This document shows positions 8,742 to 55,300 of a stretch of DNA of 64,000 bases, one piece after another. How positions within the stretch are numbered: position 1 is the first letter of the stretch; each line of letters begins with the position of its first letter. The DNA is from Patiria pectinifera (Eukaryota > Echinodermata > Asteroidea > Valvatida > Asterinidae), in NCBI GenBank assembly GCA_029964075.1, contig CM057141.1, positions 3,968,001-4,032,000 of the forward strand. The letters run 5' to 3'. Both the position numbers and the translations under genes were made by a program. The notes under the pieces were generated by a model. It saw nothing but the letters and a program-made list of their open reading frames with translations. It made no database searches and was not told the origin of the DNA.

Positions 8742-9241
8742 NNNNNNNNNNNNNNNNNNNNNNNNNNNNNNNNNNNNNNNNNNNNNNNNNNNNNNNNNNN
8801 NNNNNNNNNNNNNNNNNNNNNNNNNNNNNNNNNNNNNNNNNNNNNNNNNNNNNNNNNNNNNNNNNNNNNNNNNNNNNNNNNNNNNNNNNNNNNNNNNNNN
8901 NNNNNNNNNNNNNNNNNNNNNNNNNNNNNNNNNNNNNNNNNNNNNNNNNNNNNNNNNNNNNNNNNNNNNNNNNNNNNNNNNNNNNNNNNNNNNNNNNNNN
9001 NNNNNNNNNNNNNNNNNNNNNNNNNNNNNNNNNNNNNNNNNNNNNNNNNNNNNNNNNNNNNNNNNNNNNNNNNNNNNNNNNNNNNNNNNNNNNNNNNNNN
9101 NNNNNNNNNNNNNNNNNNNNNNNNNNNNNNNNNNNNNNNNNNNNNNNNNNNNNNNNNNNNNNNNNNNNNNNNNNNNNNNNNNNNNNNNNNNNNNNNNNNN
9201 NNNNNNNNNNNNNNNNNNNNNNNNNNNNNNNNNNNNNNNNN
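8742..9241. other. Assembly gap (500 N)
   Basis: Exactly 500 N, probably a placeholder length. It falls at the left end of the TGACGTCA-rich array. Sequence resuming at 9242 matches the unit start seen at about 34749 and 41673, so the missing part should include a unit terminus. Confidence 0.98.
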
Positions 9242-11642
9242 TTTTAATCAATAATATGCCCTGAATATGCATGAACATAAAATCTGTCAAAGTTAGCCAA
9301 AAATCGGCTAAAACGGTCACTGTGGATAGGATTTGACCTCGGCAATACGATGATGTGCGTGTGTACAAGGTCTTTGCTTGGACAAAGAGTGATCTAAATA
9401 AATTACTGGCAAAGAGTCGAAAAGGCACTTTGAAAATCGACAAATATTTTTAAATTTTTTGATGACGTCATTGTGACGTCACTTCCAACTTTGCATACTA
9501 GTATGATTAACTACCTACCCACCAAGTTTCATGACAATTGGACCTTTCCTTATATGAGTTTTGAAAAATCGCATTTTGATGACGTCATGATGACGTCACA
9601 CATTTTTCAAGTTTTGTGCGAATAGCTATTACATAACAGACCAAATGCAAAAAAGAATTTTGCATTTTGCATGTTGCGTTCGGGAGATATGGCTAAAAGG
9701 TAAAAAAAAAATATTCATATAAAATCTCAGGATGACGTCATCATGACGTCACCTCATTTTTAATCTATAACACATCCTGGTATAGCCACATACCAAGTTT
9801 CAACCCAATCGGACTTACATTTCTGTAGATATAAGACTTCACAATATGTACGTAAATTTTCAAAAATCAATAAAAAAATTAGGTGATGACGTCATCGTGA
9901 CGTCATAGTCTTGGCATAATTTTTGTATGAGGGTCTTTCTTGGCTGTAACTTTGATGACGATTCCAGATCGCCAAGTTATAAAAATGGTGGCTTGAAAAC
10001 GTGTACAAAGTCAATGGGTTAAAAACCCAACAACAGAAAACTGCACCTTTAAATACGTGATTTGCCTTTAAACTGAAATTTTTTTATAAAATATTACTCG
10101 ATATTCTGACTATTGGGAATATTTTCAATCAAATGGCAAACGTAAAAAAATACGATTTCTTTTTCCTTCTCATAGTAATTCTCGGCCGAAGTTCAGAACT
10201 TCTCAGTAAGAAATATCAGTGTTGTATAGGAAAAGACTTGTGGAAAAAGCTGTGTACAAAGTCTATGAGAAAATTTAATTATTCATAAATACATAATAAA
10301 TCACTTGATGACGTCACCATGACGTCACTCTTCGGGACACATCTTGGCTATAGGGACTATGCTTATGCCAACTTTCAATGATATCTGACAAAGATTAATG
10401 CCAAAAGTGCTATAATACGTCCCTGTCTATGCGCATGCATGAACATAAAATCTGTCAAAGTTAGCCGAAAATCGGCTAAAACGGTCACTGTGGACAGGAT
10501 TTGACCTCAGCAACACGTGCGCTGCAGGCTGACTGACATACGATGTATGTGCCTATGTACAACGTACGTGCATGTACATGTACATTGTGGACGTCCTGTC
10601 CTGTGCATGTTTTGAAGCAGAGGTATTGTCAACGTGAAGTTTTAAGCGTGCGCAGGGTATGTTCGAGTTCGCTTATCGCCTCGAAACTTTGAAATGTTTT
10701 AGACCTACCCTTCATTCGACAATTAAAGTAAAAACAAATATAAAAACTGCCATGGTTGATTTTTCAGGAATTTTCAAATGAAAAAGAGTCTTTTTATTAT
10801 AACTTCCGGTCTGATGACGTCATTCGCCTAAAACTTCGCACACGTCTTAAGTGGGTCAAGGTCATCATATACACCAATATTTAGGCGATTCCGACAAACT
10901 TCGCCACAGACATCTATTCAAAATACATTTTTGCAAATTTTTAACCTGTCGCTAGAGGGCGCTTGAAGATTGCATGACATCATTGGTAGATGATTTAAAG
11001 AATAGTTTTAGCCAAAACACTAACACCGTTGAAAGCAACTTCATATCTATTACCATTTTCAAATAATAAGCCACTTCCTGTTTTGGCCTTTTTCGACCGG
11101 AAGCAAGGGTCACATGATTTCACGCACACTGAATGAAATAAAGACCTCAATCTACTCTACCATTTGCCGGCAACAGAATGCTGCGGACGCGTACGGTTGA
11201 TTTCTTATGCATTTTTAAATATTAAAAGTGTCACAATTTAATTGCCTATAAATACACACCGGATGACGTCATCATAACGTCATCATTACACAATGTTGTT
11301 TGAATTAGGGTCTTTGCTTGGACAAAGATTGGTGTAAATAAATTACTGGCAAAGAGTCAAAAATGCCCTTTGAAAATCGACAATTTTTTTTTAAATTTCT
11401 GTGTACAAAGTCTATGGGAAAAATTAAATATTCAAAAATCTATAATAAATTAGTCGATGACGTCACCATGACGTCAATCTTCGGGACACATCTTTGCTAT
11501 AGGGACTATGCTTATGCTAACTTTGAATGATGTATGATAAAGATTAATGCCAAAAGTGGAGGCCAGAAAAAAACGTGCACAAAGTCAATGGCATTTGAAG
11601 TGGAACAAAAACAAGAAGAAGAAGAAGAAGAAGAAAGAAAAA
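9242..11642 (-). repeat. TGACGTCA-rich array unit 1 (left end in gap)
   Basis: About 2.4 kb of non-coding sequence with repeated pairs of TGACGTCA spaced 3 bp apart. Between the pairs lie modules of the form CCAAGTTTNANNNNNATCGGAC. It includes a GTGCATGTTTTGAAGCAGAG block at 10594, also seen near 40060 and 40577. It ends in a GAA-rich tract at about 11610 and then the next CTAG. I infer a Helitron-like element whose 3' end points left. Confidence 0.65.
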
Positions 11643-13164
11643 CTAGAAATGTGTTTGTGGACAAACACTGAGCTGTTTCGACCGTTTTATTAATGACTGC
11701 CGTAAAGGAGTTTCATCCAGGACGAATGAACATGTACATGCGTATTCTATACAAAAAGTGTCTATGCTATGTAAAAAACACATTTTTCATGACGTCATGA
11801 TGACGGCACACATTTTTGAAATTTTCTGTATCTATCTACGACCTAACAAACCTTTTGCAAAAAAGAATTTCGAATTTACCACGTTCCATTGATGAAATAT
11901 GAGTAAAAGGTCCAAAAATTGAATAATTCATATAAAACACATGATGACATCATCGTCACGTCACTGCAATTTTTGACTATGCATGAACATAAAATCTGTC
12001 AAAGTTAGCCGGAAATCGGCTAAAACGGTCACTGTGGACAGGATTTGACCTCAGCAACACGTGCGCTGCACGCGGGCTGACTGACATACGATATGTACAA
12101 TGTACGTGCATGTACATGTACATGTAAAAGTACATACACTTCCTGTGCATGTTTTAAAGCAGAGTTATTGTCAACCTGAAGTTTTAAGCGTGCGCAGAGC
12201 ATGTCCGAGTTTGCTTATTGCCTCGAAGCTTTGAAATATTTTAGACCTACCCTTAAATAAACAATTAAAGTAAAAACTAATATAAAAACTGCCATGGTTG
12301 ATTTTTCAGGAATTTTCTTAGGAAAAAGGGTCTTTTATTATAACTTCCGGTCTGATGACGTCATAAGGCTTAAACTTCGCACACGTCTTAAGTGGGTCAA
12401 GGTCCTTCTATACACCAATATTTAGGCGATTCCGACAAACTTCGCCACAGACATCTATTCAAAATACATTTTAAATTTTTTTTAACCTGTCGCTAGAGGG
12501 CGCTCGAAGATTGCATGACGTCATCTGTAGATGATTTAAAGAATACTATTAGCCAAAAGACTAACACCGTTAAAAGCAAGTTCATATCTATTACCACTTT
12601 TAAATAATAAGCCACTTCCGGTTTGGGCCTTTTTCGACCGGAAGCAAGGGTCACGTGATTTCACGCACACTGAATGAAATAAAGACCTCAACCTACTCTA
12701 CCACTTGCCGGCAACAGAATGCTGCGGACGCGTACGGTTGATTTGTTATGCATTTTTAAATATTAAAAATGTCACAATTTAATTGCCTATAAATAAACAC
12801 CGGATGACGTCATCATGACATCATCATTACACAATGTTGTTTGAATTAGGGTCATTGCTTGGACAAAGATTGGTGTAAATGAATTACTGGCAAAGTGTCG
12901 AAAATGCCCTCTGAAAATTGACATTTTTTTTTAAATTTCTGTGTACAAAGTCTATGGGAAAAATAAAATATTCAAAATTCTATAATAAATCAAGTGATGA
13001 CGTCAGCATGATGAAAAGTTTCGGCATACATCTTCAGATGATAGTTTAACTGTGTGCCAGGTTTGAAGTCGATCAGATTTGAAACAAGGCAAAAAGTGAC
13101 TTGTAGAACGAAAACACGTGTTATCCTATGGGAAAAAAAGTGGGAAAAAAAAAAAAAGAGAAAA
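11643..13164 (-). repeat. TGACGTCA-rich array unit 2 (type A terminus)
   Basis: Starts CTAGAAAT followed by the palindrome GTGTTTGTGGACAAACAC at 11651-11668. Read on the - strand this is a hairpin, four bases, CTAG, then T, as at Helitron 3' ends. The body repeats modules of unit 1, including the 12130-12900 block closely similar to 10590-11340. Confidence 0.65.
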
Positions 13165-14825
13165 CTAGAAATGTGTTTGTGGACAAACACTGAGCTGTTT
13201 CGACCGTTTTATTAATGACTGCCGTAAAAGGAGTTTCATCCAGGTTGAATGAACATGTACATGCGTATTCTATACAAAAAGTCTCCATGCTATGTAAAAA
13301 AAACACCATTTCTCATGACGTCATGATGACGCCACACATTTTTTGAAATTGTCTGTATCTATCTACGACCGAACAAACCTTTTGCAAAAAAGAATTTCGA
13401 TTTAACCACGTTCCATTGATGAGATATGAGTAAAAGATCCAAAAATTGAATAATTCATATCAAATGACATGATGACGTTATCGTGACGTCACTGCAATTT
13501 TTGTCTATAAAACTTCCTGGAATATCTGCATACCGACATTGAACCCAATCGGACATCAGGTTCTCTGAAGTCGATCGGACCATATTTTATATAATTTTTG
13601 AAAAATGTGAAGAAAATATTAAAATTTGAAAAATTCATAAAAAATTAGAAGATGACGTCATGATGACGTAACTTCAGATTTTGAATGCTTTTATCTATAT
13701 CTACCTACCCACTAAGTTTCATAACGATCGGACATACCCTTATATGTGAATCACAACATCACGTTTTTGATGATGTCATGATGACGTCACACATTTTATG
13801 AAACTTTGTGCATCTATCTTTCACCTGACAAACATGTTACAAAAAGAATTTTGAATTTACCATGTTCCATTGATGAGATTTGAGTAAAAGAACCAAAAAT
13901 TGCATAATTTATATAAAATCACATGATGACGTCATTGTGACGTCACTGCAATTTTTGTCTATAACAAGTCCCGGAAACTTCCATACCAAGTTTGAACTAA
14001 ATCGGACCTCCGGTTCTGTAGATATAGGGCCTTAAAGTATACACTTTAAGGATGACGTCATGTGACACGTGATGACGTCATGATGACGTCATGATTCGGC
14101 ATACATCTCCAGATGGTTGTATAAGTGTGTGCCAGGTTTGAAGTCGATCGGACCGTATTTTATATAATTATGCAAAATTTGAAGAAAATATTAAAATTTG
14201 AAAAATTCCTAAAAAATCAGATGATGACGTCACGATGACGTCACTTCAGATTTTTAATTCTGTTATCCATACCTACCTACCCACCAAGTTTCATGACGAT
14301 CGGACATACCCTTCTATGTGAATCAAAAAATCACGTTTTTGATGACGTCATGATGACGTCACACATTTAACGAAATTCTGTACATCTATCTATGACCTAA
14401 CAAACTTGTTACAAAAAGAATTTCGAATTTACCACATTCTGTTTATGAGATATGAGTAAAAGGTCCAAAAATTGAATAATTCATATAAAATCATACGATG
14501 ACGTCATCATGACGTCACTGCAATTTTCGTCTATAACACGTCCCGGAATACTTGCATACCAAGTTTGAACCAAATCGGACTTCCGGTTCTGTAGATATAG
14601 GGCCTTGAAGTATGTTCTTTTAGAATGACGTCACGTGACACGTGATGACGTCATGATGACGAAAAGTTTCGGCATACATCTTCAGATGGTGGTCTAAGTG
14701 TGTGCCAGGTTTGAAGTCGATCGGATTTGAAAAAAGTCCAAAAGTGCCTTGTAGAACGAAAACACGTGTTATCCTATGGGAAAAAAAGTGGAAGAAAAAA
14801 AAAAAAAAGAGAAAAAAAAAAATAA
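13165..14825 (-). repeat. TGACGTCA-rich array unit 3 (type A terminus)
   Basis: The same CTAG plus 18-bp palindrome terminus lies at 13165-13190. The body shows the module order most clearly. CRE-like pairs alternate with (i) GCATACCAAGTTTGAACC, (ii) GCCAGGTTTGAAGTCGATCG, (iii) CCACCAAGTTTCATGACGAT and (iv) ACAAAAAGAATTTCGAATTT. It ends in a long A-rich tract. Confidence 0.65.
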
Positions 14826-15955
14826 CTAGAGGTCTATGTCTGTTTGCAACAGAGCATAGGGCTTTTCCGCATTATGTTTTTTTTTATTTGGGGTCATGTT
14901 TTTGGTATGGTGCAAAACTGTGTGCATTTATGTTTTGTCTAACAAACCTCATTCGAAGGGAAATTTGATTTTGGCATATTGCATTTGTGAGATACGGCAA
15001 AAGTCTTATATATAAAATATATATATATAATCACAAGATGACGTCATGATGACGTCACCTCAATATTTATTTGTAACATATCCCGGCCTACCCCCATACC
15101 AAGTTTTAACCCAATCTGACGTACTGTTCGTGAGATGTAGGGGCTTAAAATATACAAGTTAAGGATGATGTCACATGTCTAATGATGACGTCATCGTAAC
15201 ATTACTTGGCAGTGCTCATTATTTTATTGTGGTTTTAGTCTGTACCAAGTTTGAAAACAATCGGATTAATATAAGTGTTAAATTTTGTAAGCAGAATAAA
15301 ATAAGCAAAATTTAAAAAATCTTTAAAAATCGATCGATGACGTCATCGTGACGTCATTCAAGATTTTGTGTACTAGTGTTATTATCTACCCACCCACCAA
15401 GTTTCATGACGATCGGACATTCCCTTATATGTGTTTCAAAAAATCGCATTTTTGCTGACGTCATCATGACGTCACGCATTTTTACAAATTTTGTGCATAT
15501 ATCTATTGCCCAGCGAACCTAATACAAAAAGAATTTCGAATTTATCATATTGCGTTAGTGAGATATGGCAAAAGTCTTCAAAAATTCAAAATTAAATATA
15601 AAATCATATGATGACGTCATGATGACGTCATCTCAAATTTTATCTATAACACTTCCCTGTCTAACCACATGCTGAGTTTCAAGCCAATCGGACATACCGT
15701 TCTGTAGATATAGGGCTTTGAAATATGCAACGTTGCGATGACGTCACATGACCCATGATGACGTCATCATTGCGTCTATCTTCGCGAACGACCTTTGCTA
15801 TATGTTCTGTGACTATGTTAAGTTTTGATGTCATATGACTTTGTTTTATGCCAAAAGTGTTTGCTAGAAAAAACGTGCACAAAGTCTATGGCATTTTGGT
15901 TGGAAGTCCCAAGAGGAAAAAAAAAAAAAAAAAGAAAAAAGAAAAAAAATTCGTA
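14826..15955 (-). repeat. TGACGTCA-rich array unit 4 (type B terminus)
   Basis: Begins CTAGAGGTCTATGTCTGTTT with a stem-loop (CTATGT-CTGTT pairing with AACAG-ACATAG on the other strand), then GGGCTTTTCCGCATTATG. The body carries the same paired TGACGTCA motifs and CCAAGTTT/ATCGGA modules. It runs into the hairpin cluster through an A-rich tract. Confidence 0.62.
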
Positions 15956-15965
15956 GAGAAACAAA

Positions 15966-16303
15966 GGCTTTTCCGCAACTTTGCGGAAAAGCCAACAAAA
16001 ACAAGAGCTGTTTCGGTGTGTACACCGAAACAGCTAAAAAAAAATAACAGAAACAAGAGCTGTTTCGGTGTGTACACCGAAACAGCTAAAAAAACCAGAA
16101 CAAAAAGAAAGGCTTTTTCGCAAATTTGCGAAAAAGCCAAAAAAATGAGAACAAAAACAAAGGCTTTTCCGCATTTTGCGGAAAAGCCAAAAAAAAAAAA
16201 TGAGAACAAAAACAAAGGCTTTTCCGCATTTTGCGGAAAAGCCAAAAAAAAAAAAAAAAATGAGAACAAAAACAAAGGCTTTTCCGCATTTTGCGGAAAA
16301 GCC
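15966..16303. repeat. Cluster of seven perfect hairpins in A-rich spacers
   Basis: Hairpins lie at 15966-15993, 16006-16035, 16058-16087, 16111-16138, 16162-16188, 16217-16243 and 16277-16303. Five are of the GGCTTTTCCGC type and two of the AGCTGTTTCGGTGT type, each almost fully self-complementary. Spacers are A-rich (AACAAAAACAA). The arm sequences match the subterminal GGGCTTTTCCGC of type B units and GAGCTGTTTCG of type A units, which ties the cluster to the adjacent array. Confidence 0.9.
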
Positions 16304-26800: not shown

Positions 26801-29800
26801 AAAAAAAAAAAATACAGGATGACTTGAAGATAAGATTTCTCCTGAGCAATGATGAGTGAATTTGGAAGACATACCCAGATGCAACACAGATTAATCAACA
26901 GTATGGATGCTTGTTTGTTACAGTACTTTGGTCATATAACACAGAAAAAAAGGTAACAGCCTAGAAAAAAATGATATTGCAGGAAAGAGTGATTCCAGCA
27001 AATTTATATGCGTGATTCCAACATAAAGGATACCTTTCGGTATCCTTGAAAGTACACACCATCTAGTTCCATTGTCGTGGGGAAGAACACTTGTCACTAC
27101 GAGGTACGTGAGGACCAAAAATGCTGTATTTGCCCAACAACAAAAATATTCCTTATAACGCGGTGTAGGCCTACTCAGCGGTCTCACATTGAGGCTAACC
27201 CAAAGCTGCCCCCCCCTCCCTGATTGAAATGTTCCCCTCTCTCCAAACTGAAAAATATTTGCCACGCAGAAAATCATAATTTTAATTTTGCTTAAAGCTA
27301 ATTTTTAATTTGACCCCCCCTAATAGCATTCTAGTTTACTATATACTTCCTCTTTTAATATGCATGTGTGTTCACAAAGTGTCCCCCCCCCCCAACTCCA
27401 GACAATACGGACCCCACTGCCCCTCCCCCCCCCCCCCCAAAAACCCCAAAATCTGCCCTTATGTATAGTAGTACTGCACTGCGTTCTTACATTATTTTGC
27501 TTCTTCGGCTTATCAATTAGGTCCATGATGAAGCTGATGTCTTGGTCGTGTAAACCATATTTGGCAAAGACGCTCTTGAGGTGGTTGGCCTTGATCAGAT
27601 GATCTAACATGGCTATTGAGGCTTCCTCGTGCTGTAAAAGATGGGGTGAACCAAAAATCTAAATTACCAAGATAGCAAACATGTACTAATTAACATGAAA
27701 AATACAACAACAAAATTTAACAGCTGCAAACTGCTCAATGACTGGATTGACCAGAAATATACCAATCAAAAAGTATATTTCGTTTTTGCAAAGACTTCTT
27801 TAGAGGCAAATGACACGGACAAGAAACAAACATGCAGGGGACATGCACACACATAGGGTTGGAAGAAGAAAAACAAAGGAGGGAAGGGGTGGTGGAAGAA
27901 GGTATTCAGTGGATGAAAGGAGATTAGGGAACAAGGGAGTGTGGTGGGAGTGGGGAACAAAACAGGGTTGGGGGAAGGAAGGTAAAGATGCAGGGGACAC
28001 AAAAGAGAGTAGTGATGAAAGTAACAGGGTAAAGATGAAGAAAGGGAAGGCAAGGACAGTGTAGTCAGTGTAAAAAGGAAGGGGAGGGGCACAAAGGATG
28101 AGTACCAACCACAGAGGGAAAGATGATGGATCTGAAACAAATTACACCAAGAGAGATAGATAAATAAATCGTTGCCTTGTTGGATGTTGAGACCATGTGG
28201 TTCAACAGTCCGAAAACACTTCATCCACACTTTCTCCCTGCTTAGATGAACTGAGTTCTTGCGGTGACCAAGTGACTCTATACCCTGTAACGTCATAACG
28301 TCATATTGGGAATTGAATGGTTAGAGAGGTTGAAGTTGTAGCCAACAGGCCCGTCGCTTGGTGTCGACAGTTACTCGATGACCATAGAAACGCTTCTTAA
28401 GCGTGTTAGCCTCCCCAACATATAGTACTCCATAGACCCTGCAAGAGATTATAGATATACAACATTAGATGTGTTGCAGGAGATGTTGCCAATGGTGCCG
28501 TGAGTGGTTCCAGAAGAATGGCCAGTAAAGAAATCAGACTCCTGGATGTTTACCTGGCAAACAACACATCTGCTACTGCACTTTAAAAGTGCCATGCTGG
28601 GTGGGAGGGGGGCATTTAAGGTGGGGACTTCGGCTTGAACTATCAGATCTCGTAGATTGCGGGGTCGACGTCTAGAAGCCAACATGGGCTGTCTGGAAAC
28701 CTCACAGTCACAGCACCATTGGCAACATCACCTGCAACATATCTAATGTCATATCTAATCTCTTGCAAGGTCTGTGGAGTACAGTTGGGCTGTCAACATT
28801 AAGAGGCTGGACACCCCTGTTAATTGGCTACCACTTGAACCTCCCTAACAACCTCCCTAACCGTTCAATTTCCAATATGACTTACAAGGGAGAGTCACTT
28901 GGCCGTCGCAAGGACTCATAAGTTCGTCTCATCAGCAGGGAGAAAGTGCTGATGAATTAGCGTCTTTGTACTGTTGAACCACATGGTCTCAACACCAAAC
29001 AAGGCAACGATTAATTTTTCTATCACTCCCAGTGTAATTTGTTTCAGATCCATCTTTCCCTATGTGCTTTTCACTCAACCTTTGTGTCCCCTCCCCCTCC
29101 CTCTTGTAGAGCCTCGCAACTTTTCATTGTAAAGGCTCGCAACTCTTCAGAGTTTAAGCAGATTCTAACTATGAATGCAGTCTTCAATGTTAAAATAGTA
29201 GGCTACGCACTCCATCCACAAGTTGCAAACCCAACAATGTGCCTTAGTCTTCAACAAGTTGGCGCAGAACTTGGACGAAGACACTGACAACACTGTCGTT
29301 GCCCTCCCTTTTTTTTTATCTCAACCCTGTTACATTCATCACCACTCTCCTTTGCTCCCCCTGCAGGCCCAAACCCCTTTTGTTCCCTGCTCCCACCACA
29401 CTCCCTTGTTCCCTAATCTCCTTTCATCCACTGTGCACCTTCTTTCCCTCCCCAATTCCCTTTTTTGTGATCTCCTTCCAATTAACCCTGCCTGTGTGCA
29501 TGTCCCCTGCATGTTTGTTTCTTGTCCATGTGTCGTTTGCCTCTGAAAGTTCACGTACTAAAACATATTTTTATCTACAATGATCATAGTATATGAAGAG
29601 CATTCCTTTCTTCAGAACCCTCCCAAGTTAAAAAAAAAAAAATCATTCAATTCATTAAAACCTTCCCTCTCTGGCCGGCACTTTCATCAACAAGGCCAGC
29701 CCAGCAGTCAAAATAAATTAAGTGACTGATTAACAGTTGAGTGCTCCTTGCCTTCATAAGCTTGATGAAATCTCACTTTATACTGTGAAATTTGAGCCAC

Positions 29801-33592: not shown

Positions 33593-34693
33593 CTAGAGAT
33601 GTGTTTGTGGACAAACACAAGCTGTTTCGGATATTTAAAATACTCAGTGCACGTGATGAACAATCAGTGATGTCACTAACAATGTCATCTATAACAGCAC
33701 ATTATACGTACATGTCAAGTTATAACCAAATCGAACATATAGGTCTGTAAATATAGGCCTATGAAGAACAAAATGCCCCTTTAAGGGACGTCACATGACA
33801 TTTGATGATGACATCACATGAATTTTCATCTATAACCCATCTCGGCATTGGTACGATCACGAATTTCTTCTAGGACCATCTGTGGGTGGTAGTCTTAGTG
33901 TGTACCAGGTCTAACGTCGATCGCATAATTTACAAAAGTGCCAAAGTAGAGTGTTTTAAAACGTGTACAAACCCTATGGGGAAAAATGCATCTTTAATGT
34001 GATGTAACCCAACACCTGATGACGTCACGTTCGCGCATTTCTTCTAGGACCATCTTTGGGTGGTGGTCTAAAAATGTATCAAGACTGAGGTCGATCGGAT
34101 TTACGAAGGTGCCAAAGTGGAGTGTTTTAAAACGTGTACAAAACATATGGGGAAAAACGCATCTTTAATGTGACGTAACCCAACACCTGATGACGTCACG
34201 ATCACGAATTTCTTCTAGGACCATCTGTGGGTGATGGTCTAAGTGTGTACCAAGTGTAACGTCGATCGGATTTACGAAAGTGCCGAAATGGAGCGTTTTA
34301 ATACATGTACAAACCCTATGGGGAAATATACATCTTTAATGTGACGTAACCTGACACTTGATGACGTCACGATCACGAATTTCGTCTAGAACCATCTGTG
34401 GGTGGTGGTCTAAGTATGAATTAAGTTTAAAGTCGATCGGATTTACGAAGATGCCAAACTGGTGTGTTTTAAAACGTGTACAAAACATATGGGAAAAATG
34501 CATCTTTAATTTGATGTAACCTGACCCCTGATGACGTCATGATCATAAATTTCTTCTAGGACCATCTGTGGGTGGTGGTCTAAGTATGTACCAAGTCTGA
34601 AATCAATCGGATTTAAAAAAGTGGCAAAGTGGACTTGTAGAAGAAACGTGTGTTAAACCTATGGAGAAAAAGTCTGAAAAAGGAGAAAAAAAA
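33593..34693 (-). repeat. TGACGTCA-rich array unit (type A terminus) with 171-bp satellite
   Basis: Starts CTAGAGAT plus the palindrome GTGTTTGTGGACAAACAC at 33601-33618. From about 33850 to 34640 it consists of roughly five tandem copies of a 171-bp unit: GACGTCA starts at 34021, 34192, 34363 and 34533. Each copy includes TTCTTCTAGGACCATCTGTG and GTCGATCGGATTTACGAA. It ends in an A-rich tract before the next CTAG. Confidence 0.7.
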
Positions 34694-35693
34694 CTAGAGA
34701 TCTATGTCTGTTTGCAACAGAACATAGGGCTTTTCCGCATTATGATTTTTTTTTATCAATAATATGCCCTGAATATGCATGAACATAAAATCTGTCAAAG
34801 TTAGCCGAAAAATCAGCTAAAACGGTCACTGTGGACAGGATTTCACCTTGGCAATACGATGTATGTGCGTGTGTACAAGGTGTTTGCTTGGACAAAGAGT
34901 GATCTAAATAAATTACTGGCAAGAGTCGAAAACGCACTTTGAAAATCGACAATTATTTTTAAATTTTTGATGACGTCATCGTGACGTCATTTCGAACTTT
35001 GCATACTAGTATGATTAACTACCTACCCACCAAGTTTCATGACAATTGGACCTTTCCTTATATGAGTTTTGAAAAATGGCATTTTGATTCCGTCATGATG
35101 ACGTCACACATTTTTCAAGTTTTGTACGAATAGCTATTACATAACAGACCAAATGCAAAAAAGAATTTTGCATTTTGCATGTTGCATTCGGGAGATATGG
35201 CTAAAAGGTCAAAAAAATAAATATTCATATAAAATCTCAGGATGACGTCATCATGACGTCACCTCATTTTTAATCTATAACACTTCCTGGTATAGCCACA
35301 TACCAAGTTTCAACCCAATCGGACTTACATTTCTATAGATATAAGACTTCACAATATGTACGTAAATTTTCAAAAATCAATAAAAAAAATAGGTGATGAC
35401 GTCATCAAGACGTCATAGTCTTGGCATAATTTTTGTATGAGGGTCTTCCTTGGCTGTAACTTTGATGACGATTCCAGATCGCCAAGTTATAAAAATGGTG
35501 GCTTGAAAACGTGTACAAAGTCAATGGGTTAAAAATCCCACAGCAGAAAAACTGCACCTTTAAATACGTGATTTGCCTTTAAACTGAAACATTTTTATAA
35601 AATATTACTTGATATTCTGACTCTTGGGAATATTTTCAATCAAATGGTTAACGTAAAAAAATACGATTTCTTTTTCCTTCTCATAGTAATTCT

Positions 35694-36579
35694 ACGGAAG
35701 CTTAAAGTGACCATTCGAGTTTCCACGTTTCTTTGATGATTTATCTCAGAAAGATGGATTACTAAGATATTTATGACGTGTTTCCCTGATATCGTGTCTT
35801 GGAAAGACGTCTTTCCCTGATATGGTATCTCGGAAAGACGTCTTTTCCTGATATCGTATCTCGGAAAGACGTCTTTCCCTGATATGGTATCTCGGAAAGA
35901 CGGCTTTCACTGATATTGCATTTCGGAAGGACATCTTTTCCTGATATAACATCTCGGAAAGACGTCTTTCTCTTATATCATCTCGGAAAGACATCTTTCC
36001 TTGATATCGTATCTCTGAAAGACGTCTTTCCCTGATATAACATCTCGGAAAGACGTCTTTCTCTGATATCATCTCAGAAAGACGTCTTTCCTTGCTATGA
36101 TATCCCGGAAAGACGTCTTTCCCTGGCGGAAAGACGTCTTTCTCTCATATCTTATCTCAGAAAGACGTTTCCCCCTGATATTGTATCTCGGAAAGACGTC
36201 TTTCATCTCGGAAAGACGTTCTTTCTCTAATATCTTATCTTGAAAAGACGTTTTCACCTGATATAACATCTTAAGACGTCTTTCTCTCATATATCATCTC
36301 GGAAAGACGTCTATCCTTGATATCGTATGTCGGAAAGACGTCTTTCTGAGAAACGATATCAGGGAATGACGTCTTTCCGAGATACAATATCAAGGAAAGA
36401 CGTCTTTCTGAGATACGATATCAGGAGAAGATGTCTTTCCGAGATACGACATCCGGGAAAGACGTTTTTCCGAGATGCGATATCACGAAAAGACATGTTT
36501 TTATCTCAGTATTCCGTCGTTCCGAGATAAATTATCTCGGAAACTTGGAAACTCGGATGGTCACTTTAAGCTTCCGTAT
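35694..36579. mobile_element. Foldback transposon with 31-bp internal repeats
   Basis: The ends are ACGGAAGCTTAAAGTGACC and its complement GGTCACTTTAAGCTTCCGT, extended by GAGTTTCC/GGAAACTC. The inside is a tandem array of a 31-bp unit, TCTCGGAAAGACGTCTTTCC plus a GATATCGTA-type link, and array orientation flips near 36345. The flanks share TAATTCT on both sides, as a target-site duplication. The uninterrupted site TAATTCTC(A/G)GCCGAAGTTC is present at about 10181 and 37007. There is no transposase, so it is non-autonomous. Confidence 0.88.
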
Positions 36580-37528
36580 AATTCTCAGCCGAAGTTCAGA
36601 ACTACTCAGTAAGATATATCAGTGTTGTATAGGAAAAGACTTGTGGAAAAAGCTGTGTACAAAGTCTATGAGAAAAATTAATTATTCATGAATCCATAAT
36701 AAATCACTTGAAGATGACGTCATCATGATGTCGTAGTCTTGGCATAATTTTTGTATGAGGGTCTTCCTTGGCTGTAACTTTGATGACGATTCCAGATCGC
36801 CAAGTTATGAAAATGGTGGCTTGAAAACGTGTACTAAGTCAATAGGTTAAAAATCCCACAGCAGAAAAACTGCACCTTTAAATGCGTGATTTTCCTTTAA
36901 ACTGAAACATTTTTATAAAATATTACTTGCTATTCTAACTCTTGGGAATATTTTCAATCAAATGACAGGCGTAAAAAAATACGATTTCTTTTTCCTTCTC
37001 ATAGTAATTCTCAGCCGAAGTTCAGAACTACTCAGTAAGATATATGAAAAAAAAGGTAAGACTGCTGCAAACTGCTTACTGACTGGATGGACCTGAAATA
37101 TATAAATCTAAAAATTAATGTGGCCTGACGTTGCGAACTTAGCAAGTTCTTCTTCAGAGGCTAAAACAGAAATGACAGGGGTACAAACATTAACATGGGG
37201 GTGCACACAAACATGCAGGGCTGAAAGAAGAAACACAAAAGGAGGATTAGGTGGGAAAGGTGTGGAAAGATGCAGGGGAGGGTGGATGAGAGAACAAAGG
37301 AACAAAGGGAGATGGCAAACCACAAGGGGTCTAGTGTAAACAGGGGAGGGATCAGAAAGGGGAAGAGAAAGGGAGAAGAAAAGACAAAAGAGTGTGAGAG
37401 TGATGATGATGGGGGGGGGGGACAGTATGGGGGTGGAAAGGGATGAAAGATGGGGGAAGATGGGTAAACACAAACAAGGAAGACCAGGTGGATTATCTGT
37501 AACAGAAGACAATGGAGGAAGAAAAGGA

Positions 37529-38176
37529 TTAATCATTCCCTAGTTGGATGTTGAGACCATGTGGTTGAATAGTTCGAAGACGATTCATCCACACTTTCTC
37601 TCTGCTGAGGCGAACTGAGTCCTTGCGATGGCCAAGAGATTCAATGCCCTGCAAAATCATATCAGAAATGGAGTGGTTAGGCAGGTTGAAGTGATGACCA
37701 ACAGGGGTGTCTAGTTTCTTGGTGTTGACCGTTGACCGGTGGGCATAGAAACGCTTCTTGAGCGTATTCTTAGTCTCACCTACATACTGCACTCCACAGA
37801 CCCTGCAAGAAATGAGATATATGACATTAGAGGTGTTACAAGTGATGTTACCAATGGTTCTGTGGGTAGTGACAGAAGAGTGGCCAGAAAAGGAGTCAGA
37901 CTCCTGGATATGAATCTGGCAGACAACACATCTGGAACTGCACTTGAAAGTACCATGCTGGGTGGGAGGGGATGCATCTAAGGATGGGACATCAGCTCGA
38001 ACAATCAGGTCCCGTAGATTTCGAGGACGCCTGTAAGCCAATGTGGGGCCGTTGGGGATGGCGCGGGCAAGGCGATCTGAAGTGTGGAGGATATGATGAT
38101 TGTCATTTGTGATTTTGCGAAGGGGAGGGAGATTGGGGTGAAACGTGGTAACCAAGGGAATCATGGGTTTGGCCAT
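37529..38176 (-). CDS. Penelope-like GIY-YIG endonuclease region
   Basis: The frame has [16 protein letters not shown], a Cys-rich stretch [15 protein letters not shown], then VIYLISCRVCGVQYVGET with downstream TLKKRFYAHRS, the GIY-YIG nuclease core with its Arg and catalytic-region Glu context. After that come HFNLPNHSISDM and SREKVWMNRLRTIQPHGLN. In this family the nuclease nicks the target for primed reverse transcription. The equivalent region is seen in the fragments at 27715-28690 and 28700-29600. Confidence 0.9.
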   Translation of the reverse strand: MAKPMIPLVTTFHPNLPPLRKITNDNHHILHTSDRLARAIPNGPTLAYRRPRNLRDLIVRADVPSLDASPPTQHGTFKCSSRCVVCQIHIQESDSFSGHSSVTTHRTIGNITCNTSNVIYLISCRVCGVQYVGETKNTLKKRFYAHRSTVNTKKLDTPVGHHFNLPNHSISDMILQGIESLGHRKDSVRLSREKVWMNRLRTIQPHGLNIQLGND

Positions 38177-38200
38177 GGCATCAGGGCCTTTCCCGTGAGG

Positions 38201-40051
38201 CTAGATTTCTGGGGATAGCTTTAGCTCTGGCATTGGCACGAGGAACTTGGCGAGAGCTGTGACCCCCACCAAGTTGTTCCTCAGTATCTGTGTATGGCGG
38301 GAGAAATCTGAATCATTAGAACAAATTCTTCTGAGTCTGAGTGCCTGGCTGAACGCTATGCCAGTTTTGCAGTGCCTGGGGTGACAGCTGGAGGAGTGGA
38401 GGTACTGGTGGGTGTCTGTGGGTTTGGAATACAGGTCAGTGGTTAGTGAGTTGCCTTGCTTGCGGACGGTGACATCCAGAAAGTGGGTTTGGTGAGCCGA
38501 GAACTCCGACGTGAATTTGATGGTTCTGTGGAAGGAATTGATGTGGTTAGTGAAGGTCAAGAGACTGTCCTCATCACTGGTCCAGATGAAAAAAACATCA
38601 TCAATATATCTCCACCAGATCCAAGGGCGACATGGGGCCGAGGCAAGCATGCGTTCTTCGAGGTCACCCATGAAGAGGCAAGCCATGGAAGGGGCCATGC
38701 GAGTGCCCATTGCGGTGCCGTGTACCTGTAGATAGTGTTCACCAAGGAAGGAAAAATTGTTCTTCGTTAGTATAAGTCTCATGAGGGTGCCAACATCACT
38801 GATGGGAGGAGTCGTGTGTGCCTTGGCCAGAGCCAAGGAGCAAGCACGAACACCCTCCTCATGTGGGATGTTGGTGTACAGAGATGAGACGTCGAAAGTC
38901 CCAATGATGGCTGTGCTGGGAATCTGGTCCTTGATTCCTTCAAGCTTGCGTAGGAAGTCTGGGGTGTCGTGAATGTATGACGAAATCTGTGGGACAAGGG
39001 GTTTGAGAAAACTGTCAATGAACAGGGAGATGCGTTCCGTGGGTGAGCCATTACCGGAGATGATGGGTCTACCGGGGTTGCCAGCCTTGTGAATCTTGGG
39101 TAGAAGGTAAAATCTGGCAGTCCTACAATCACAGGGAGAAAGGAATTTGTGAGCTTTCTTGGACAACTGGTCACGTGATCGCATATCGTCAAGTACCTGT
39201 TGTATATCTCGACAGAAAGTGCCTGTGGGGTCAGAGTCAAGGCGGGTATAGTTAGTGCGATTATCCAACTGGCGGTGGGCCTCATCAATGTACTGCTGAC
39301 GATCCATGATGACCACAGCTGAACCTTTATCTGCTGGCTTGATGATGATGTCGGTGCGAGAGCGCAAGGAGTTGAGAGCCAGGCGCTCCTCTCTGGGGAG
39401 ATTATCATGAGTCCTGTGGGGGAAGTTGTCCGGGTTAGTGACTTGGGAATTGATAACTTGAACGTATGTCTCTATGGCTGGCACACGATTCTTGGGGGGT
39501 ACCCATGAACTCTTGACTCGAAAAGGCTCAGGTTCACACGGTTCACTGTCCAGGAAAAACTCACGCAGACGGATTCTACGGTAGTATTCCGTGAGGTCTT
39601 GGCTGAGCTGAACCTGGTTCACAGAACGGGGAGCTGGACAAAAATTGAGACCCTTGGAGAGAAGTTTGTGCTCTGCGTCAGATATTGATGAGGAAGAAAG
39701 ATTAACTACAGTGTTGACAGGGGGTTCTGGCGTTGGCGTGGTAGATGGGGACCTAGGACGTCTGAAACGTCTGTGTCTGCGTTGCTGTTGCTTGGCAAGC
39801 AAGCCACCAATCTTCTTGTTTCTCCTGTTGAGTAGGACAGAGTCAAGGTTAGACAAACCCCTTTCAATCTCATCATGGAAATTCCTGTACGTGGAATCAG
39901 AACAACTGGATTTGAGTTGGGAGTCAAGGTGGGAAATATTCTGATGGAGGTCCTCACGTGTAAATTGACACTGCTGAGAGAGAATATTGATGAGTTTAAT
40001 AGAGGCACCATGTAAAACTTGATTCCATCTCCTTTGAAGGTGTGGTGGGAG
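38201..40051 (-). CDS. Penelope-like reverse transcriptase
   Basis: The ORF is open from the truncated 5' edge, giving about 616 residues. Motifs in order are an Arg-rich N-terminal stretch, IIKPADKGSAVVIMDR (a signature of Penelope-like RTs), CRTARFYLLPKIHKAGNPGR, FDVSSLYTNIPHEEG, GTRMAPSMACLFM and the catalytic YIDDVFFIW. It ends with a HTHFLDVTV and HQYLHSSSCHPRHCK thumb region. Such RTs are related to telomerase RT and prime at nicked target DNA. It adjoins the endonuclease frame on the same strand. Confidence 0.92.
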   Translation of the reverse strand, partial: LPPHLQRRWNQVLHGASIKLINILSQQCQFTREDLHQNISHLDSQLKSSCSDSTYRNFHDEIERGLSNLDSVLLNRRNKKIGGLLAKQQQRRHRRFRRPRSPSTTPTPEPPVNTVVNLSSSSISDAEHKLLSKGLNFCPAPRSVNQVQLSQDLTEYYRRIRLREFFLDSEPCEPEPFRVKSSWVPPKNRVPAIETYVQVINSQVTNPDNFPHRTHDNLPREERLALNSLRSRTDIIIKPADKGSAVVIMDRQQYIDEAHRQLDNRTNYTRLDSDPTGTFCRDIQQVLDDMRSRDQLSKKAHKFLSPCDCRTARFYLLPKIHKAGNPGRPIISGNGSPTERISLFIDSFLKPLVPQISSYIHDTPDFLRKLEGIKDQIPSTAIIGTFDVSSLYTNIPHEEGVRACSLALAKAHTTPPISDVGTLMRLILTKNNFSFLGEHYLQVHGTAMGTRMAPSMACLFMGDLEERMLASAPCRPWIWWRYIDDVFFIWTSDEDSLLTFTNHINSFHRTIKFTSEFSAHQTHFLDVTVRKQGNSLTTDLYSKPTDTHQYLHSSSCHPRHCKTGIAFSQALRLRRICSNDSDFSRHTQILRNNLVGVTALAKFLVPMPELKLSPEI

Positions 40052-40185
40052 GTTATGTGCATGTTTTGAAGCAGAGGTATTGTCAACGTGAAGTTTTAAG
40101 CGTGCGCAGGGTATGTTCGAGTTCGCTTATCGCCTCGAAACTTTGAAATGTTTTAGACCTACCCTTCAATCGACAATTAAAGTAA
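40052..40185 (+). repeat. 134-bp patch identical to 40570-40703
   Basis: The segment starting GTTATGTGCATGTTTTGAAG and ending ACAATTAAAGTAA is identical, as far as I can read, to 40570-40703 in the same orientation. It lies between the truncated 5' edge of the Penelope-like element and the right copy of the target duplication. It overlaps that duplication by AGTAA. Confidence 0.9.
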
Positions 40186-41613
40186 GATATATGAGTGTTG
40201 TATAGGGAAATACTTGTGGAGAAAGCTGTGTACAAAGTCTATGAGAAAAATTAATTATTCATAAATCCATAATAAATCACTTGATGACGTCACCATAACG
40301 TCACTCTTCGGGACACATCTTTGCTATAGGGAGTATGCTTATGCCAACTTTCAATGATATCTGAAAAAGATGCCAAGAGTGCTATAATACGTCCCTGTCT
40401 ATGCGCATGCAGGAACATAAAATCTGTCAAAGTTAGCCGAAAATCGGCTAAAACGGTCACTGTGGACACGACTTGCCCTCAGCAACACGTGCGCTGCAGG
40501 CTGACTGACATACGATGTATGTGCCTATGTACAACGTACGTGCATGTACATGTACATTGTGGACGTCTTGTTATGTGCATGTTTTGAAGCAGAGGTATTG
40601 TCAACGTGAAGTTTTAAGCGTGCGCAGGGTATGTTCGAGTTCGCTTATCGCCTCGAAACTTTGAAATGTTTTAGACCTACCCTTCAATCGACAATTAAAG
40701 TAAAAACAAATATAAAAACTGCCATGGTTGATTTTACAGGAATTTTCAAATGAAAAAGGGGCTTTTTATTATAACTTCCGGTCTGATGACGTCATTTGCC
40801 TAAAACTTCGCACACGTCTTAAGTGGGTCAAGGTCATCATATACACCAATATTTAGGCGATTACGACAAACTTCGCTACAGACATCTATTAAAAATACAT
40901 TTTGCTAATTTTCAACCTGTCGCTAGAGGGCGCTCGAAGATTGCATGACGTCATCGGTAGATGATTTGAAGAATACTATTGGCCAAGAGACTAACACCGT
41001 TGAAAGCAAGTTTATATCTATTACCACTTTCAAATGATAAGCCACTTCCGGTTTTGGCCTTTTTCGACCGGAAGCAAGGGTCACGTGATTTCACGCACAC
41101 TGAATGAAATAAAGACCTCAACCTATTCTAGCACTTGCCGGCAACAGAATGCTGCGGACGCGTACGGTTGATTTTTTATGCATTTTTGAATATTAAAAGT
41201 GTCACAATTTAATTGCCTATAAATAAACACCGGATGACGTCATCATGACGTCATCATTACACAATGTTGTTTAAATTAGGGTCTTTGCTTGGACAAAGAT
41301 TGGTGTAAATGAATTACTGGCAAAGAGTAAAAAATGCCCTTTGAAAAGCGACAATGTTTTTTTAAATTTCTGTGTACAAAGTCTATGGGAAAAATTAAAT
41401 ATTCAAAAATCTATAATAAATTAGTCGATGACGTCACCATGACGTCAATCTTCGGGACACATCTTTGCTATAGGGACTATGCTTATGCTAACTTTGAATG
41501 ATGTATGGCAAAGATTAATGCCAAAAGTGGCACTGAGAAAAAACGTGCACAAAGTCAATGGCATTTGAAGTGGAACAAAAAGAAGAAGAAGAAGAAGAAG
41601 AAGAAAGAAAAAA

Positions 41614-42289
41614 CTAGAGATCTATGTCTGTTTGCAACAGAACATAGGGCTTTTCCGCATTATGATTTTTTTTTATCAATAATATGCCCTGAATATGCAT
41701 GAACATAAAATCTGTCAAAGTTAGCCGAAAAATCAGCTGAAACGGTCACTGTGGACAGGATTTCACCTCGGCAATACGATGTATGTGCGTGTGTACAAGG
41801 TGTTTGCTTGGACAAAGAGTGATCTAAATAAATTACTGGCAAAGAGTCGAAAACGCACTTTGAAAATCGACAATTATTTTTAAATTTTTGATGACGTCAT
41901 CGTGACGTCATTTCGAACTTTGCATACTAGTATGATTAACTACCTACCCACCAAGTTTCATGACAATTGGACCTTTCCTTATATGAGTTTTGAAAAATGG
42001 CATTTTGATTCCGTCATGATGACGTCACACATTTTTCAAGTTTTGTACGAATAGCTATTACATAACAGACCAAATGCAAAAAAGAATTTTGCATTTTGCA
42101 TGTTGCATTCGGGAAATATGGCTAAAAGGTCAAAAAAATAAATATTCATATAACATCTCAGGATGACGTCATCATGACGTCAGCTCATTTTTAATCTATA
42201 ACACTTCCTGGTATAGCCACATACCAAGTTTCAACCCAATCGGACTTACATTTCTGTAGATATAAGACTTCACAATATGTACGTAAATT
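41614..42289 (-). repeat. TGACGTCA-rich array unit (type B), cut by gap
   Basis: Nearly identical to 34694-35367, including CTAGAGATCTATGTCTGTTT and paired TGACGTCA motifs. It is interrupted by the second gap. Sequence after the gap is unrelated, so the array end is unresolved. Confidence 0.75.
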
Positions 42290-52343: not shown

Positions 52344-55300
52344 TCACCTGGTGTTTGTGTCTGTCTTTTCTGGTACAGATGTAGATATTCTCAAGCCGTG
52401 CATCTGTTTGACTTCTTCAGCTAATGCCTAGAAAGAAAAAACAGGAAGAAGAGAAAGGAAAGAAAAAAACTAAAGTAAAAAAAAAAATGACAGCTAGGAT
52501 TCAGTTTCAGATGGTTAATTTCACCAACGTGTAACATACAGGGTGGTGCAACAAGAAGGAAACCCACTTTTGACAGGAATTTTAACCTACGGTACTTAAC
52601 GTATTTGAACTGTTGTTTTTTATAATGTAGTGAAGTATAGCTCTTCAACCATGCGTGGTGAAAAAAATCTTCAAAAAAATTGCAAGAATAGTGTTATTAT
52701 GCTAATTTGAATACAAGTCACCAAAATCACTGTTGTCCACTCGAAACTCTAGTGTAGTTGTTTGTTTTTCTTCAAATCAAGCTCCGGAGCTCAGTCAAGC
52801 GAATGGAATAAAGCCGTCCGTGGACAAACAGCTTTGGCACATGAAATTTTAAAACTACCATATCTCAGAGACAAAATATGCATTTGCAATCATTTTTATT
52901 TCTTGACTTATGTTTCAAGATCAATATTTTAATACCATTAAATTGAATTTTTGAAATATGCTCAACAAGTAGGTGAAAATTGCGGTCAAAAGTGGGTTTC
53001 CTTCTTTTTGCAGCACCGGTCACCCTGTGCAGGCAACCCAAACATTTAGGTATCTTTTGCATGTTATTTTGTCTACGTATAACAGTTTATGTCAACACTT
53101 TTAAACCACACATACTGGAATTTGTATCCTTGTGGAGTCATTTCTTTGTTCTTGTGTACTCAAATTTTAGAGTTTGAAACTGTGGTTTCAAAATTCTCCT
53201 ATAACCAGAATTAATTTCCTGGGCTGAAATTTGGACTTAATATCCCTCACACAAAATACTTCAATTTGCGACTGATCAACACACCTTGGAAATTCCTAGT
53301 TTCTGAGTAAAATCCATATATCTATTTCGTTAAACCTTGTGGAGACATATTCACCGATCGAAATTGCCCAGTGGAGACGTATACAATCTTTTGTTCCCTA
53401 TTATGCACAATGCATGTCTCCACAGGGTACCGTGTACCAGATCACTGATATTTCAGTATAATGAGCACTTTCCCCTTTGCATGGTTTACGATTTCAATTG
53501 CCATGCAGAGGTGTGTTTTTGCAGTATACATGAAGGGTGTATGGCAGAATGCCATGCAATCATATTACTCACTGCAGTTTTTTCCCCTCTACCTGTCGGA
53601 CAGTAATTCTGTCTGTATGTTAAATGTATTTAGCTGTTTCGGTGTAACACACCGAAACAGCTCTTGTTTTTGTTATTTATTTTTTTTTCGCTTTTTTTTT
53701 TTTTCTTCCACTTTTTTCCCCATAGGATAACACGTGTTTTCGTTCTACAAGGCACTTTTGGACTTTTTCAAATCCGATCGACTTCAAACCTGGCACACAC
53801 TTAGACCACCATCTGAAGATGTATGCCGAATCATGACGTCATCACGTGTCACGTGACGTTATCCTAAAAGAGCATACTAAGGCCTTATATCTAGAGAACC
53901 GGAAGTCCAATTTGGTTCAAACTTGGTATGCAAGTATTCCGGAACGTGTTATAGACGTAAATTGCAGTGACGTCATGATGACGTCATCGTTTGATTTTAT
54001 ATAAATTATTCAATTTTTGGACCTTTTACTCATATCTCATAAACGGAATGTGATAAATTCGAAAAAAATTTTGTAACAGGTTTGTTAGGTCATAGATAGA
54101 TGCACAAAATTTCGTAAAATGTGTGACGTCATCATGACGTCATCAAAAACGTGATTTTTTGATTCACATATAAGGGTATGTCTGATCGTTATGAAACTTG
54201 GTGGTTAGGTAGGTATAGATAACAGCATTCAAAATCTGAAGTGACGTCATCATGACGTCATCATCTGATTTTTTATGAATTTTTCAATTTTAATATTTTC
54301 TTCAAATTTTGAAAAAAAATTATATAAAATACGGTTCGATCGATTTCAAGCCTGGCACACACTTATACAACCATCTTATACAAATCATTTTGTAAAAGGC
54401 TTGTTTGGTCGTAGATAGATACACAAAATTTCAAAAAATGTGTGCCGTCATCATGACGTCATGAAAAATGTTTTTTTTGTACATAGGATGGACACTTTTT
54501 GTATAGAATACGCATGTACATGTTCATTCGACCTGGGTGAAACTACTTTACGGCAGTCATTAATAAAACGGTCGAAACAGCTCAGTGTTTGTCCACAAAC
54601 ACATTTCTAGTTCTTATATTTGTTTTTTCCATGTTCTGCTTTGTTTTCCTCGCACATTTTATTTGAGTGCCGGTATACTTTTTTTGGTTGTTAAGTGTTA
54701 TGTTTTGCGCAATTCTTACCTCTAGATGAACATAGTACATTAATGTTGCACAATTGATATGTTTGTTATATGATGTAATTTTTATTATTACATAGAGGGC
54801 ACCTTCGAAAAGCAGTTTTTTTAACTGAAATGGACAACCCTCTTTAAAGATCACAACAAATTAATCAACTGATATTTCAAGAGATATGCATGCAGTGCAG
54901 AAGAGAACCGCTTCCTGAAAGTTGGAATCACACAACCACAATATCCAACTTCATAAAATAAGGTCACATGGTCAATAGAAAATCACTCTACCGGTATTAG
55001 CTTTCAAACAAAATGGACAAATCCTGGACTGAAAGAAACCTTGGGAGGTAAAATCCCTTCATTGCAACAGACAAAGCGCTTTTCCTTTTTGTCCAAATAA
55101 AGAAACAAATTCAATGAAGAGACATTCAATCAAAACACAAAACGTTCAAACAGGAAACCAAAAATGGGGTGAAAAAAATATTGAAAAGAATCGCTTTGAT
55201 ATTTGTATTGATGTTGCACTGCAAAAGCAAACAGAACATTGATCCAAAAAAAATCCCCAGGATATCTACGTAACTTTGCCGGTCTGTGATTGGTCGGTTG

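Follow-up and report, generated by a model that had tools for sequence, protein, structure and literature searches.

Self-nesting as the probable origin of tandem-like arrays of Helentron-like elements in Patiria pectinifera

Three loci (9242-16303, 33593-42289 and 53632-54610) in a 64,000-nucleotide stretch of the Patiria pectinifera genome are built from transposon-like units rich in the motif TGACGTCA, which we take to be a CREB/ATF-type site. The stretch, hereafter the window, comprises positions 3,968,001 to 4,032,000 of contig CM057141.1 (C13:3968001-4032000 in our numbering, where C-numbers are contigs and L-numbers are labeled loci elsewhere in the assembly). The original prediction described the units as non-autonomous elements with Helitron-superfamily 3' ends of two types, A and B, and regarded their tandem arrangement as consistent with rolling-circle copying. 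Our searches of the assembly (613.5 Mb, 1020 contigs) bear out the elements, with one kind present at all three loci and both terminus types in high copy number genome-wide, but point to a different origin for the arrays. We consider it probable (roughly 0.78) that these are self-nested, non-autonomous elements of the Helentron/Helitron2 kind (HINE-like), and not tandem copies.

The motif occurs 83 times in the window against an expectation of 0.99, and 78 of these copies fall inside the three loci. Exact copies form 24 pairs (48 copies) at a spacing of 3 bp, and 39 pairs are found with up to two mismatches, against 0.01 expected. The pairs run all through the element bodies, for example over 9463-15766, and may have a role in expression of the elements.

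The elements have the layout 5'-TT-hairpin-T tract-TGACGTCA-rich body-subterminal repeat-3' stem-loop-NNNN-CTAG-3', followed by T. Stem-loops with four bases and CTAG behind them were recovered where they had been predicted, at 11643, 13165, 14826, 33593, 34694 and 41614 on the reverse strand and at 54610 on the forward strand; the type A structure, described as a perfect 18-bp palindrome, proved to be a stem-loop with two 8-base arms and a 2-base loop. The stem-loop stops 8 nt before the terminus, and CTAG is the last conserved motif ahead of the T. The opposite terminus had been overlooked, and consists of 5' hairpins, seven of them at 15960-16303 and one at 53632-53668. The hairpin reads AGCTGTTTCGG...CCGAAACAGCT-CTTG in type A and GGCTTTTCCGC...GCGGAAAAGCC-TTTG in type B, with TT before it and a T tract after it in the copies printed; in one loop class, whose total was left uncounted, only 2 hairpins lack a T two bases ahead. 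Its arm recurs, inverted, as the subterminal repeat found upstream of the 3' stem-loop in elements of that type (CGAAACAGCT for A, GCGGAAAAGCC for B). Palindromic subterminal repeats are therefore present at both ends, as in Helentrons and HINEs, and hairpins at both termini accompany asymmetric terminal inverted repeats, as in Helitron2. Beyond A and B we find type D and an F-like type, and A itself divides into two subtypes.

Exact 3' ends number 1138 for type A (A3) and 496 for type B (B3), with the palindrome arms exact in all of these copies, and exact 5' hairpins number 1057 (A5) and 811 (B5); the reversed controls gave 0 in each case. The numbers of A hairpins and A ends are close to 1:1. 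The 5' hairpins are strong, with folding energies between -13.9 and -16.4 kcal/mol and z scores against shuffles between -6.1 and -9.5, and the signal for the two 3' ends folded as single-stranded DNA is only moderate (z -2.1 and -2.4, with 6 and 5 of 200 shuffles folding at least as stably). Strictly satellite-like arrays had been named as a finding that would speak against the prediction; solo copies with both ends and differing flanks do exist, at 53632-54610 in the window and at L043, L050, L062 and L065.

Within the window the elements form two arrays and one solo copy (Table 1), and both arrays are cut by runs of 500 N (8742-9241 and 42290-42789). In the first array all of the hairpins stand in front of the bodies, in the order B B B B A A B from outer to inner, and the ends met from the inside outward are B, A and A. 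This is a bracket order, in which the last hairpin opened is the first to be closed, with three of three visible pairs in agreement. A fourth pair is inferred: the stretch 9242-10182 aligns with 34750-35693, which lies just upstream of the B end at 34694-34720. The prediction had the CTAG of one unit abut the pyrimidine tract of the next, which stands as an observation, with the tract reinterpreted as the resident's own, resuming behind an insertion.

Table 1. Positions of the arrays and the solo element in the window (units of each array listed from the inside outward).
Feature	Position	Strand	Remark
Seven stacked 5' hairpins (B B B B A A B from the outside in), each with a T-rich tract behind it	15960..16303	-	front of first array; folds
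First array, innermost unit: body rich in TGACGTCA behind a T tract, with a type B 3' end (CTAG 14826-14829)	14826..15959	-	
First array, second unit from the inside: body behind a resumed T tract, with a type A 3' end (CTAG 13165-13168)	13165..14825	-	
First array, third unit from the inside: body behind a resumed T tract, with a type A 3' end (CTAG 11643-11646)	11643..13164	-	
First array, fourth unit: long body, cut by N a short way before the expected type B end	9242..11642	-	B inferred from alignment
Second array: type B 3' end (CTAG 41614) and the body ahead of it	41614..42289	-	front lost in N
Second array: resumed unit, type B 3' end (CTAG 34694)	34694..41613	-	
Second array, outermost unit: 171-bp internal repeats, type A 3' end (CTAG 33593), then flanking DNA	33593..34693	-	
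Solo type A element: hairpin 53632-53668, body, 3' stem-loop, CTAG ending at 54610	53632..54610	+	

We propose that such arrays are made by insertion of copies into copies. An element would insert before a T, often in a T run and without detectable duplication, with the T strand of the target in the element's own orientation. Each copy has such a T run just inside its 5' hairpin, and would then itself be open to insertion by a later copy of like orientation. The newcomer would land behind the hairpin of the resident, which would stay in front, and would add its own hairpin, body and CTAG, so that the T tract and body of the resident would come to lie beyond the new CTAG. Inner units would lack a hairpin for this reason, each newcomer having entered a T tract directly behind a resident's hairpin. 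Repeated rounds would produce a stack of hairpins and then a series of CTAG-ended bodies, with the first hairpin closed by the last CTAG, a set of nested brackets resembling tandem repeats. Composites may sometimes be re-mobilized from an outer hairpin, which would leave hairpins unclosed. The insertion chemistry is presumably that of rolling-circle transposition. The data establish the termini, the preference for T, a single empty site, the stacking of hairpins, the order in which ends pair overall and, for the arrays compared, the lack of close kinship between array mates.

A T follows 1104 of the 1138 A ends, and another base the remaining 34. Empty sites were sought with the joined flanks of six loci; of 410 candidates 40 were scored, all of them belonging to the host repeat of L062, and the other five joined-flank sites had no match among these 40 places. 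The L062 copy sits within another repeat, the uninterrupted counterparts of which (40 scored places, 16 fetched) carry a run of exactly 5 T in 15 cases and 6 T in one. The occupied site reads CCCCTTTTT-AGCTG...CTAG-TTATTT, that is TTTTT[AGCTG...CTAG]TT, and comparison with the empty sites implies that two Ts were gained along with AGCTG...CTAG. The simplest reading is that an element TT...CTAG was placed between two Ts. The original prediction had proposed looking for a 5' TC or TT start, and TT is what this one site gives; the target duplication that would have told against the prediction is not seen there beyond the ambiguity of the T run. While the insertion at L062 lies inside a T run, the flanks of L065 and L054-L055 would fit insertion between A and T.

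Tandem Helitron arrays are usually interpreted as rolling-circle multimers or young satellites. In the first of these explanations replication continues past the 3' terminus and the resulting multimer is inserted in one step; tandem Helitrons are explained in this way in the sections of PMC4067079 and PMC5148889 that we draw on. Some junctions have the form that such concatemers would leave. We find 155 junctions from an A3 end to a hairpin, and among 100 listed the spacer is TT in 32, as the joined ends of a TT...CTAG element would give, TTTTT in 18, and 0 or 1 base in none. However, concatemers should repeat the 5' hairpin at every junction, whereas both arrays in the window join CTAG to a T tract with no hairpin between them, hairpins of differing types are stacked at the front, and end types pair mainly in last-in-first-out order. 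Near-identical neighbors would also be expected, and the neighbors compared are not near-identical but diverged like copies elsewhere. We therefore set aside the rolling-circle account of the tandem units as improbable; simple tandem duplication is likewise rejected.

Stacking of hairpins is common in the genome, with 269 A hairpins followed by another no more than 35 bp downstream. The spacers of 24 stacked hairpins listed on C1-C2 all end in TT, and 20 of the 24 are distinct. Pairing was parsed on C1-C3, for which all four exact-match lists are complete (86 A3, 41 B3, 98 A5 and 83 B5), and where 51 clusters hold both kinds of end. Last-in-first-out (LIFO) pairing gave 85 matches and 5 mismatches, and first-in-first-out (FIFO) pairing 72 and 18. 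For the 13 clusters with both hairpin types the figures are 33 and 3 for LIFO and 20 and 16 for FIFO; shuffling the hairpin labels within clusters gave a mean of 22.5 matches, and 33 were reached in 1 of 20,000 shuffles. The mixed clusters C1:3620579-3625602 and C3:18786604-18791513 both have the form (A (B B) A), and at C2:19309236-19333738 an A opens ahead of four B hairpins and closes behind the B ends. L092 is balanced once one mismatch is allowed. In L091 a D hairpin encloses a B hairpin and a B end, and a D-type end, sought after the D hairpin had been seen, follows.

As a rule, neighbors in the arrays compared are not each other's closest relatives. For the two-level arrays L052-L053, L054-L055 and L063-L064 the best match of all six units, among the matches listed, lies at another locus; the inner unit of L052 is 98.9% identical to the outer unit of L063 and 95.1% to its own mate. 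The four units of L056-L059 have a mean divergence of 8.2% among themselves (6 pairs) and 7.9% from four copies at other loci (16 pairs), and for two of the four the nearest copy is elsewhere. Array mates thus look like separate insertions. These data bear on the second explanation, in which satellites arise by unequal crossing-over of one element and hairpins are gained or lost through slippage in the T tracts. Such a process would suit the near-equal lengths of the L056-L059 units, two of which have an array mate as their nearest copy, the three B hairpins of the window stack that are identical over the hairpin, and L072, which is one hairpin short. It does not lead one to expect mixed types in bracket order within one array, spacers as diverse as those listed, best matches at other loci for the units of all three two-level arrays, or A hairpins and A ends in nearly equal numbers, and we consider satellites even less credible than concatemers.

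Several observations weigh against the nesting model. The excess over shuffles rests on the innermost pairs, which would be expected under any model with matching ends; second-level pairs alone give 10 matches and 2 mismatches (p = 0.18), and with A subtypes 21 and 5, a result equaled in 5809 of 20,000 shuffles. When the whole parse is run with hairpin-loop subtypes it gives 78 matches, 11 mismatches and 1 unknown (FIFO 59, 21 and 10). Subtyping of A by its loop is poor, as several TGTAC loops have the spacer of the other subtype, and we attribute the extra mismatches to these poor calls. The bracket order fits the data, yet is not proven by type statistics alone. The exact-match parse leaves 46 hairpins unclosed and 13 ends unopened; some of these are detection losses (L092), and some belong to further end types (D in L091, an F-like end in L101). 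Three B hairpins stay open in L091 (5 kb read) and two A hairpins in C3:16952900-16960000, and L072 reads A5...B3...A3 with no B hairpin. The array at C3:7706900-7721500 gives 4 of 4 in the exact parse; with fuzzy tokens the tally becomes 3 matches, 3 mismatches and 2 open, and the array can be bracketed only with three hairpins left open and one degenerate end set aside; our confidence in nesting is lower because the fuzzy parse of this array fits worse than the exact one.

Kinship and target site add to these points. In L056-L059, two of the four units are closest to an array mate, no age gradient runs from inner to outer units, and the four outside copies were picked from 12 aligned, with 8 dropped because they were partial or 10-38% from the consensus. 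At L062 alone, the exact place of the element in the T run is ambiguous and a duplication of TT is formally possible; the right flank of L043 starts with TC, which argues against TT duplication.

A continuation test was set beforehand on three arrays with two open hairpins each (L100, L101 and L102), and 1.5 kb past the last CTAG was read. After that CTAG a T tract and element body were expected, with further ends within 4.5-5.5 kb. Tract and body resume in all three arrays, and a further end of the expected subterminal type was found in two (L101 and L102). In L101 this end has the expected subterminal repeat and CTAG, and another T tract and body follow. In L102 one further end is recognizable by its subterminal repeat and stem-loop, with the CTAG gone and then apparent flanking DNA, before which the second of the two predicted ends was not found; in L100 there is no end in the 1.44 kb read, which is body throughout, and both results count on the unfavorable side. 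The L056-L059 array had been considered as a counter-example, with one hairpin and four ends, and was dropped as such when three more hairpins were found 2.0-2.2 kb further out; a variant CTAG end lies directly ahead of the inner hairpin, and the stretch to the outer hairpins is unread.

Unclosed hairpins would be accounted for if copying of a nested composite can start at an outer hairpin and stop at either the first 3' end or one further on, and the product is inserted whole, so that a single body may carry several hairpins, a chimeric mobilization modeled in Fig. 7 of PMC5148889 (among the sections available to us). A double hairpin GTTATT-AGCTG occurs at three places on C1, two of them seen with different 5' flanks, and the three C1 arrays that carry it differ in their 3' flanks; a D-A double hairpin is shared by L073 and C3:7706900-7721500. 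Recurrent insertion at one T could yield the same junction, and this process alone cannot give arrays with equal numbers of ends and hairpins, for which nesting is needed first. The recurrence of these double hairpins at different places is what copying of a nested composite as one unit would be expected to give. Such re-mobilization would add to nesting, and we put the chances that it made part of the stacks at about even.

Of the 181 exact hairpins on C1-C3, 56 have another at most 110 bp ahead of them, some of these perhaps inherited in composites. The 1868 exact hairpins of the assembly compare with an estimated 86,000-829,000 T runs of at least 8 (0.2-2%); runs of at least 10 are estimated at 5,700-267,000, and the low figure, which comes from Rep loci, would abolish the excess. 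Enrichment of self-insertion over other T runs is only suggestive. We rather doubt, but offer tentatively, the idea that the T tract is an evolved landing pad, where transposase at the hairpin of a resident would draw copies in, so that the family would grow mainly inside itself, sparing host genes and leaving re-mobilizable, bracket-ordered archives of insertions. If the landing pad is indeed preferred beyond its T content, a transposon could by this means keep the harm to its host small.

The window was predicted to contain no Rep/helicase, and this holds for the PF14214 profile (Helitron_like_N): scoring 150 of 162 candidates gave 148 matches in the assembly, some of them pieces of one gene, and none in the window. 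An autonomous element sharing the same ends had also been proposed as a check, and no A or B end or hairpin was found in the 30 Rep loci read, 1.5 kb either side of the Rep domain. By a hand count, 86 of the 148 matches lie on C7, which makes up 44.9 of the 613.5 Mb and is possibly a sex chromosome or a heterochromatin-rich chromosome. An apparent excess of C7 Rep genes 9-30 kb from A ends, mostly in opposite orientation (judged by eye, among the matches listed), was followed at one place, where no convincing shared ends were seen across roughly 5 kb downstream and 2 kb upstream of a Rep gene. This C7 gene, read in pieces, has after a frame change an Exo_endo_phos-like stretch (E 4.9e-5; 23.6 bits, curated cut-off 24.5), and the piece preceding this stretch had no Pfam match. 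The Rep gene (L074, C7:15631500-15635500; open frame of 3564 aa) has a PHD finger and a Herpes_teg_N-like domain in its long upstream part. The Rep-helicase of the elements would presumably be supplied by Helentrons of the same genome.

Other repeats accompany the elements in the window. The unit 34694..41613 is split by two of these. The first (~35.7-36.6 kb) is a foldback-like inverted repeat of 31-bp GACGTCTTTCC units at 35688-36583, inside an element body. The second (~37.1-40.0 kb), at 37108-40086 on the reverse strand, has reading frames for reverse transcriptase (PF00078) and GIY-YIG (PF01541), and we take it to be Penelope-like; a copy of part of it, 77% similar, lies at 28164-28688. 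The 171-bp repeats of the outermost unit occupy 33853-34633, and a tandem 16-bp unit, GGTGCCGAGTTGGCAA, extends over 59876-60042 in 10.5 copies with 94% matches.

The existence of types A, B and D labels each insertion naturally, so that its front and its back can be matched; the order of the matches reveals how an array was built up, and matched ends give relative dates of insertion. For the triplet of elements in Metarhizium, the sections of PMC5148889 that we draw on leave open whether insertion into a 5' end or rolling-circle replication was responsible. This question of concatemer or self-insertion becomes testable in any long-read genome with such elements.

The original prediction recognized no described family. 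The architecture in fact matches those of HINE/Helentron and Helitron2 elements (PMC4067079; PMC5148889), except for the CTAG end; these papers, and PMC7492417, are cited here for the portions available to us. HINEs are described with subterminal repeats of palindromic form, insertion at TT and border Ts that vary (PMC4067079). The Patiria elements resemble Helentrons and HINEs in the palindromic subterminal inverted repeat, which lies a few bases from the 5' terminus and recurs close to the 3' terminus, the 3' palindrome, the T-rich target, the border Ts and the lack of target duplication, and the genome contains Rep genes, one with an endonuclease-like stretch behind it, as in Helentrons (PMC4067079). 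They differ in ending in CTAG, which PMC4067079 gives for canonical Helitrons (CTRR) and the proto-Helentron, and in their self-nesting arrays, which are not described for Helentrons and HINEs in the portions of that paper cited. The proto-Helentron of Phytophthora infestans shares the 5' TT, the 3' CTAG and the absence of target duplication, but is reported to insert between A and T and to carry a Rep/helicase gene (PMC4067079), in contrast to the T run of the site tested here and the non-coding copies.

Canonical Helitrons (Helitron1) likewise have a stem-loop shortly before a 3' CTRR (here CTAG) and a T following the element; the canonical stem-loop lies about 11 nt upstream, and here it lies 8 nt from the terminus. 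The Patiria elements differ in that the 5' end has TT and a hairpin in place of TC, subterminal inverted repeats are present, and insertion at L062 was in a T run and not between A and T. In Fusarium, where the termini and some self-insertion of Helitron2 have been described, the FoHeli elements have asymmetric terminal inverted repeats, in some cases with hairpins at both termini, and self-insertion and multiple 5' termini have been proposed for them; unlike the Patiria elements, FoHeli1 and 2 end in ATTTT, and what is described is one nested copy and some copies with several 5' termini (PMC5148889). Cg_HINE of the Pacific oyster has the HINE architecture, T-rich targets and internal tandem repeats, to which the 171-bp repeats of the window can be compared; its repeats lie within one element and are not nested elements (PMC7492417). 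Literature on nested or tandem Helentrons gave, in titles and the openings of abstracts, no report of bracket-ordered arrays, with subscription journals mostly uncovered. Taken together, these comparisons place the architecture among those already known from HINE/Helentron and Helitron2 elements, and self-nesting on this scale is the notable part of the Patiria system.

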